In this document: one piece after another, positions 24,080 through 24,163 of the stretch
Position numbering within the stretch: position 1 is the first letter of the stretch
How the letters are laid out: each line of letters begins with the position of its first letter
Source of the DNA: Halopenitus malekzadehii
GTDB taxonomy: Archaea > Halobacteriota > Halobacteria > Halobacteriales > Haloferacaceae
Length of the DNA stretch: 64,000 bases
Assembly: GCF_900108505.1 (NCBI RefSeq)
Contig: NZ_FNWU01000008.1
Coordinates: 1 to 64,000, forward strand
Direction: 5' to 3'
Notes under the pieces: generated by a model
What the model was told of the DNA's origin: nothing
Database searches by the model: none
Seen by the model: only the letters and a program-made list of their open reading frames with translations
Translations under genes and position numbers: made by a program

Positions 24080-24163
24080 CTGGAATTAGGCGCTAAGTCC
24101 CCTTCCTCAAGGAGCAACGCAGGGAGCGAAGCGACCGAGTAGCGCAGTAGGGAGGGGATACAG
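24080..24163 (+). ncRNA. Orphan TnpB-type right-end/omega-RNA-like element without tnpB
   Basis: Directly after the rnhB stop there is sequence unlike its surroundings, with motifs ggcgctaagtccccttcctc and agtagggaggggatacagc. CCCCTTCCT pairs with AGGGAGGGG (nine pairs, one G-U) to close a stem around a GCGA-rich internal part (gcagggagcgaagcgaccgagt). From memory, this layout recurs at the right ends of haloarchaeal IS200/IS605 (IS1341-type) TnpB elements, where the same segment serves as the scaffold of the guide RNA. No tnpB or tnpA remains. The strand is inferred from that resemblance. Family assignment rests on recognition, not a search. Confidence 0.5.

Follow-up and report, generated by a model that had tools for sequence, protein, structure and literature searches.

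The rnhB–secD interval

The window, by which the whole analysed stretch of 64,000 nucleotides is meant, corresponds to positions 1–64,000 of the Halopenitus malekzadehii contig NZ_FNWU01000008.1. The host gene rnhB (ribonuclease HII; RNase_HII, E 4.3e-33) occupies positions 23282–24079 on the forward strand with an intact frame and ends with the stop codon TAA at 24077–24079. Its convergent neighbour, a secD-like gene, was located at 24215–25861 on the reverse strand (SecD_SecF_C, E 1e-13). The original prediction concerned positions 24080–24163, directly 3' of the rnhB stop codon, where stem arms CCCCTTCCT (24099–24107) and AGGGAGGGG (24149–24157) enclose a GCGA-rich loop. The RNA fold of 24070–24180 was determined to be -42.4 kcal/mol with a z value of -3.21 against shuffles, which confirms the predicted hairpin abutting the rnhB stop as a structure beyond chance. 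The fold of the hairpin region as single-stranded DNA was less striking (z = -1.67). The Rfam scan of the window at the gathering threshold resulted only in the archaeal RNase P RNA at 27517–27867 on the forward strand (RF00373, 164.3 bits).

Resemblance to transposon left ends

Two profiles of transposon ends were compared with the window. The left-end profile, constructed from 52 intact left ends with the window excluded, matched with 129.1 bits (E 3.5e-39). The right-end profile, covering the tnpB 3' end, the omega-RNA scaffold and the terminus of 30 right ends, gave 5.5 bits (E 0.3), and its match was limited to the 21 nt at 24098–24118. These 21 nt represent the stem motif which is common to left and right ends, CCCC-YCCTCAAGGAGC ... 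GAGTAGGG-GGGG. The right end of intact elements is different, e.g. AAACAGGAAGCCCCACCCTCAAGGAGCGAACCGCGTCAGCGGTGAGCGAGTAGGCTGGGGTAGTTCAC in locus L010, and overlaps the tnpB 3' end. Judged by its sequence, the 103-bp segment at 24080–24182 on the forward strand is a solo remnant of the left end of a haloarchaeal IS200/IS605 TnpB-type element, more precisely of an IS605/IS1341-type element with DUF2080 and TnpB. The original prediction of a solo TnpB-element end was therefore correct in the IS200/IS605 family and incorrect in the choice of the right end, the two ends having been mixed up because of their common stem motif.

The genomic surroundings of the homologues led to the same assignment. 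Sequences of about 90 bp, often 95–100% identical, are positioned directly upstream of DUF2080/tnpB genes across Halobacteria. The plasmid matches, with 95–99% identity over window positions 24075–24165, were found approximately 80–135 bp upstream of DUF2080 and TnpB genes, the latter containing OrfB_IS605 and Cas12f1-like_TNB domains. Flanking sequence was read for 75 external loci, among them a few second copies of plasmid matches; in 61 of the 75, a tnpB gene followed in the same orientation. Exact 77-mer matches in GTDB species genomes (Halohasta, Halogranum, Halobellus, Halorubrum, Haloquadratum, Haloferax) preceded tnpB in 7 of 8 cases, and the remaining one was at a contig end. The left end of Haloterrigena alkaliphila (NZ_CP084319.1, 213255–213345) is 98.9% identical over 91 bp and has the same TTTAAC start and the same palindrome; there, DUF2080, tnpB and a right end come next, whereas the window copy stops after 103 bp.

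The four target bases preceding the 52 intact left ends were TTAA in 31, TTAG in 11 and TTAC in 5 cases (47/52). The TTAA of the window is host DNA at 24076–24079 on the forward strand, its TAA being the rnhB stop codon, and the element therefore begins at 24080. IS200/IS605 elements do not duplicate their target. The start of the originally proposed feature was thus accurate, whereas its end at 24163 falls about 19 nt short of the real end at 24182; the TTAA target has to be considered in addition.

The subterminal palindrome of the left end extends over 24091–24165 on the forward strand. Its outer pairing is formed by CGCT/AGCG (24091–24094 with 24162–24165) and its inner pairing by TCCCCTTCCT/AGGGAGGGGA (24098–24107 with 24149–24158). 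In 21 distinct left ends, 98.0% of the cells of this 14-pair structure were paired, compared with 47–68% when the partners were slid. One inner pair varies among the left ends as T-A, G-C and A-T. The double changes are confined to this single pair and lend modest support to a conservation of the palindrome as a structure.

In the H. malekzadehii genome, about 20 full or partial matches to the end sequence were detected. The domain search of the genome revealed no TnpB or Y1 domains on the contig of the window; all the Cas12f1-like_TNB matches were on other contigs, and Y1_Tnp genes occur in the genome. The noted lack of tnpB at the site was hence borne out for the entire contig, with many tnpB genes or fragments being present elsewhere in the genome.

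Break point and history of the remnant

In one sub-family of left ends, ...GATACAGCG and CCGCAC... are separated by a nested palindrome, which reads TCCCCAGAAATCTTTGATTTCTGGTGTGCGAACGAGACGC... and ends with ...CGTCTCGTCAACG. The window contains the first 17 bases of this insert (24166–24182, forward strand) and diverges at 24182|24183, immediately after the nested palindrome's loop, continuing with AAGTCGAAGCC. In the 391 genomes searched, ACAGCGTCCNCAGAAATCTTTGA occurred five more times and was always extended by TTTCTGGTGTGCG, which is not the case in the window. The same left-end variant, including ACAGCGTCCNCAGAAATCTTTGA, was found in Halorubrum salsamenti (NZ_VCNL01000001.1; L167/L174), where it continues to the end of the palindrome (TTTCTGGTGTGCG...) and into a full element, whereas the window copy breaks off. 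The window has neither DUF2080 nor tnpB, and likewise no omega-RNA region or right end; 3' of the break, the right-end profile did not match.

At the rnhB locus, the element is specific to the window among the sequences compared. In the scan of 30 rnhB loci with the left-end profile, the element was absent 3' of rnhB at 29 of the 29 other loci, two of them from the same genus; some loci had less of the 3' side since rnhB was matched only in part. A single weak left-end match in locus L016 was elsewhere in the locus, away from the 3' side of rnhB. In both same-genus genomes, secD adjoins rnhB also; the rnhB stop codon is TGA, followed by secD after differing spacers which lack the element sequence.

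It is very probable that an element was inserted at the TTAA of the rnhB stop codon and that a later deletion left a truncated, probably immobile left-end relic. In this course of events, a DUF2080- and TnpB-containing IS605/IS1341-type element would have entered 3' of TTAA, between the convergent rnhB and secD. The left break of the subsequent deletion would lie immediately after the loop of the nested palindrome in the left arm of the element. Everything up to and including the right end would have been lost, namely the remaining left end, both DUF2080 and tnpB, and the omega-RNA region, so that 103 bp of left end containing the subterminal palindrome were left behind. As neither a full element nor an unmistakable empty TTAA site was found at the rnhB locus in the strains compared, we infer both the original insertion and the deletion. 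The deletion agrees with the frequent deletions reported for the IS605-type elements of Haloquadratum, in which nested small repeats are also frequent (PMC3119063).

In IS200/IS605 elements, the Y1 transposase TnpA recognises the subterminal palindromes as single-strand hairpins. In the intact element, the palindrome would presumably have served as such a hairpin for TnpA, acting in trans in the case of tnpB-only elements. With one end only, the relic should be immobile.

Instead of being deleted in place, the element may have arrived as a copy shortened beforehand, through a one-ended insertion. A very improbable alternative is that the segment is a self-contained non-autonomous mini-element of the PATE or MITE type, moved as a short unit by TnpA in trans. 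Left ends fused to a right terminus do exist in L148, L156, L130 and L146, and PATEs have been described in Haloquadratum (PMC3119063); however, the right-end profile detected no right terminus in the window copy, its right border recurs in no other copy found, and the variant copies run on in 5 of 5 cases. A mini-element with its own right border was consequently rejected, there being neither a right end nor a second copy with the border. In Haloquadratum, PATEs and degenerate IS605-type elements resemble the window copy in being non-coding remnants with a near-terminal palindrome (PMC3119063). In PATEs, however, the two ends are both preserved, fused to each other, and the boundaries are defined, whereas the window copy has kept the left end only. 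L148 and L156, both from other genomes, are very short, extreme mini-elements in which the left-end palindrome leads straight into the right terminus (..TAGTTCAC).

Returning to the truncated left end, a second solo left end was detected in the same genome at C36:33370-33576 (L003/L005). It also breaks within the hairpin of a nested palindrome (ACAGCGTTGACGAGACGCT|TAATGAG, in comparison with L044). That both solo left ends of the genome (2/2) are broken at such a hairpin may hint at a palindrome-provoked deletion.

Small palindromic inserts of a recurring type were observed in the left ends L043, L044, L047, L066, L167, L172 and L174–L177 as well as in the right-end region of L106 and L108. 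Their arm pairs include CCAGAAATC..GATTTCTGG and GACGAGACGC..GCGTCTCGTC, and the inserts end with ..AACG. Their positions are fixed, either within left ends or close to the 3' end of tnpB. The inserts recall the SMR-A repeats of Haloquadratum which target IS605-type elements (PMC3119063).

Guide RNA and host-gene readings

The original prediction interpreted the hairpin as an orphan right end producing an omega-RNA scaffold for a TnpB encoded elsewhere, with the bases past 24163 as the guide. This interpretation is in line with the 21-nt stem motif shared with right ends and with the numerous tnpB genes or fragments on other contigs of the genome. Nevertheless, it is even less probable than the mini-element. 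The right-end profile reached only E = 0.3, the sequence is that of the left end of intact elements, and the proposed guide bases 24164–24182 still belong to the left-end sequence. In the elements studied, the omega-RNA region consists of the tnpB 3' end and the right end; the window lacks this region together with the omega-RNA core and the GTTCAC terminus, and a guide-RNA scaffold is therefore absent. The comparison of the left and right profiles thus ruled out the orphan right end, and from its sequence the window hairpin is predicted to hold no omega-RNA scaffold and to encode no guide RNA. The haloarchaeal omega-RNAs (sotRNAs) belong to the 3' part of the transposase gene, the right-end hairpin and the guide (PMC12558985). 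They derive from the same element class as the window remnant and have a short stem motif in common with it; in contrast to sotRNAs, the window remnant is without the transposase-gene part, the right-end hairpin and the guide. No relevant publication was found in the literature search on archaeal orphan omega-RNAs.

The weakest reading, a native conserved rnhB 3' region that serves as a terminator or regulatory hairpin and has nothing to do with transposons, had been named as the refuting alternative in the original prediction and fits the good fold directly 3' of the rnhB stop, but has practically no probability left, being ruled out by the 29 rnhB orthologue loci without the sequence and by the matches at other loci, of which at least one was found in 217 of the 292 genomes of the class.

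A later use of the truncated left end by the host is a separate matter. It is improbable, though conceivable, that the palindrome now provides the rnhB mRNA with its 3' end or with a hairpin for processing, or keeps the transcripts of the convergent genes rnhB and secD apart; if so, a transposon end would have turned into a gene terminus. The remnant is an ordinary fossil in the genome, left by a transposon that is common in haloarchaea. It has little significance alone and shows how easily one end of a haloarchaeal TnpB element is taken for the other, as both have the same stem motif. Screens for orphan omega-RNAs should employ the whole right-end profile.

For the guide-RNA idea, other loci of the H. 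malekzadehii genome are better targets, namely an omega-RNA-containing mini-element and several right ends without tnpB. The mini-element at C16:4293-4567 (L105/L004) lacks tnpB and consists of a left end with a nested palindrome, an omega-RNA region that shares 93% identity with the one in an intact element, and the right end GGGGTCGTTCAC. This locus is the kind of object which the original prediction had hoped for in the window. Right-end matches with no TnpB-domain match nearby were detected at C21:39483-39561 (L115) and C5:10919-11002 (L116), both on the reverse strand, and at C27:779060-779120 (L119) and C22:22460-22520 (L120). All four are candidate orphan right ends or putative trans-acting omega-RNAs.
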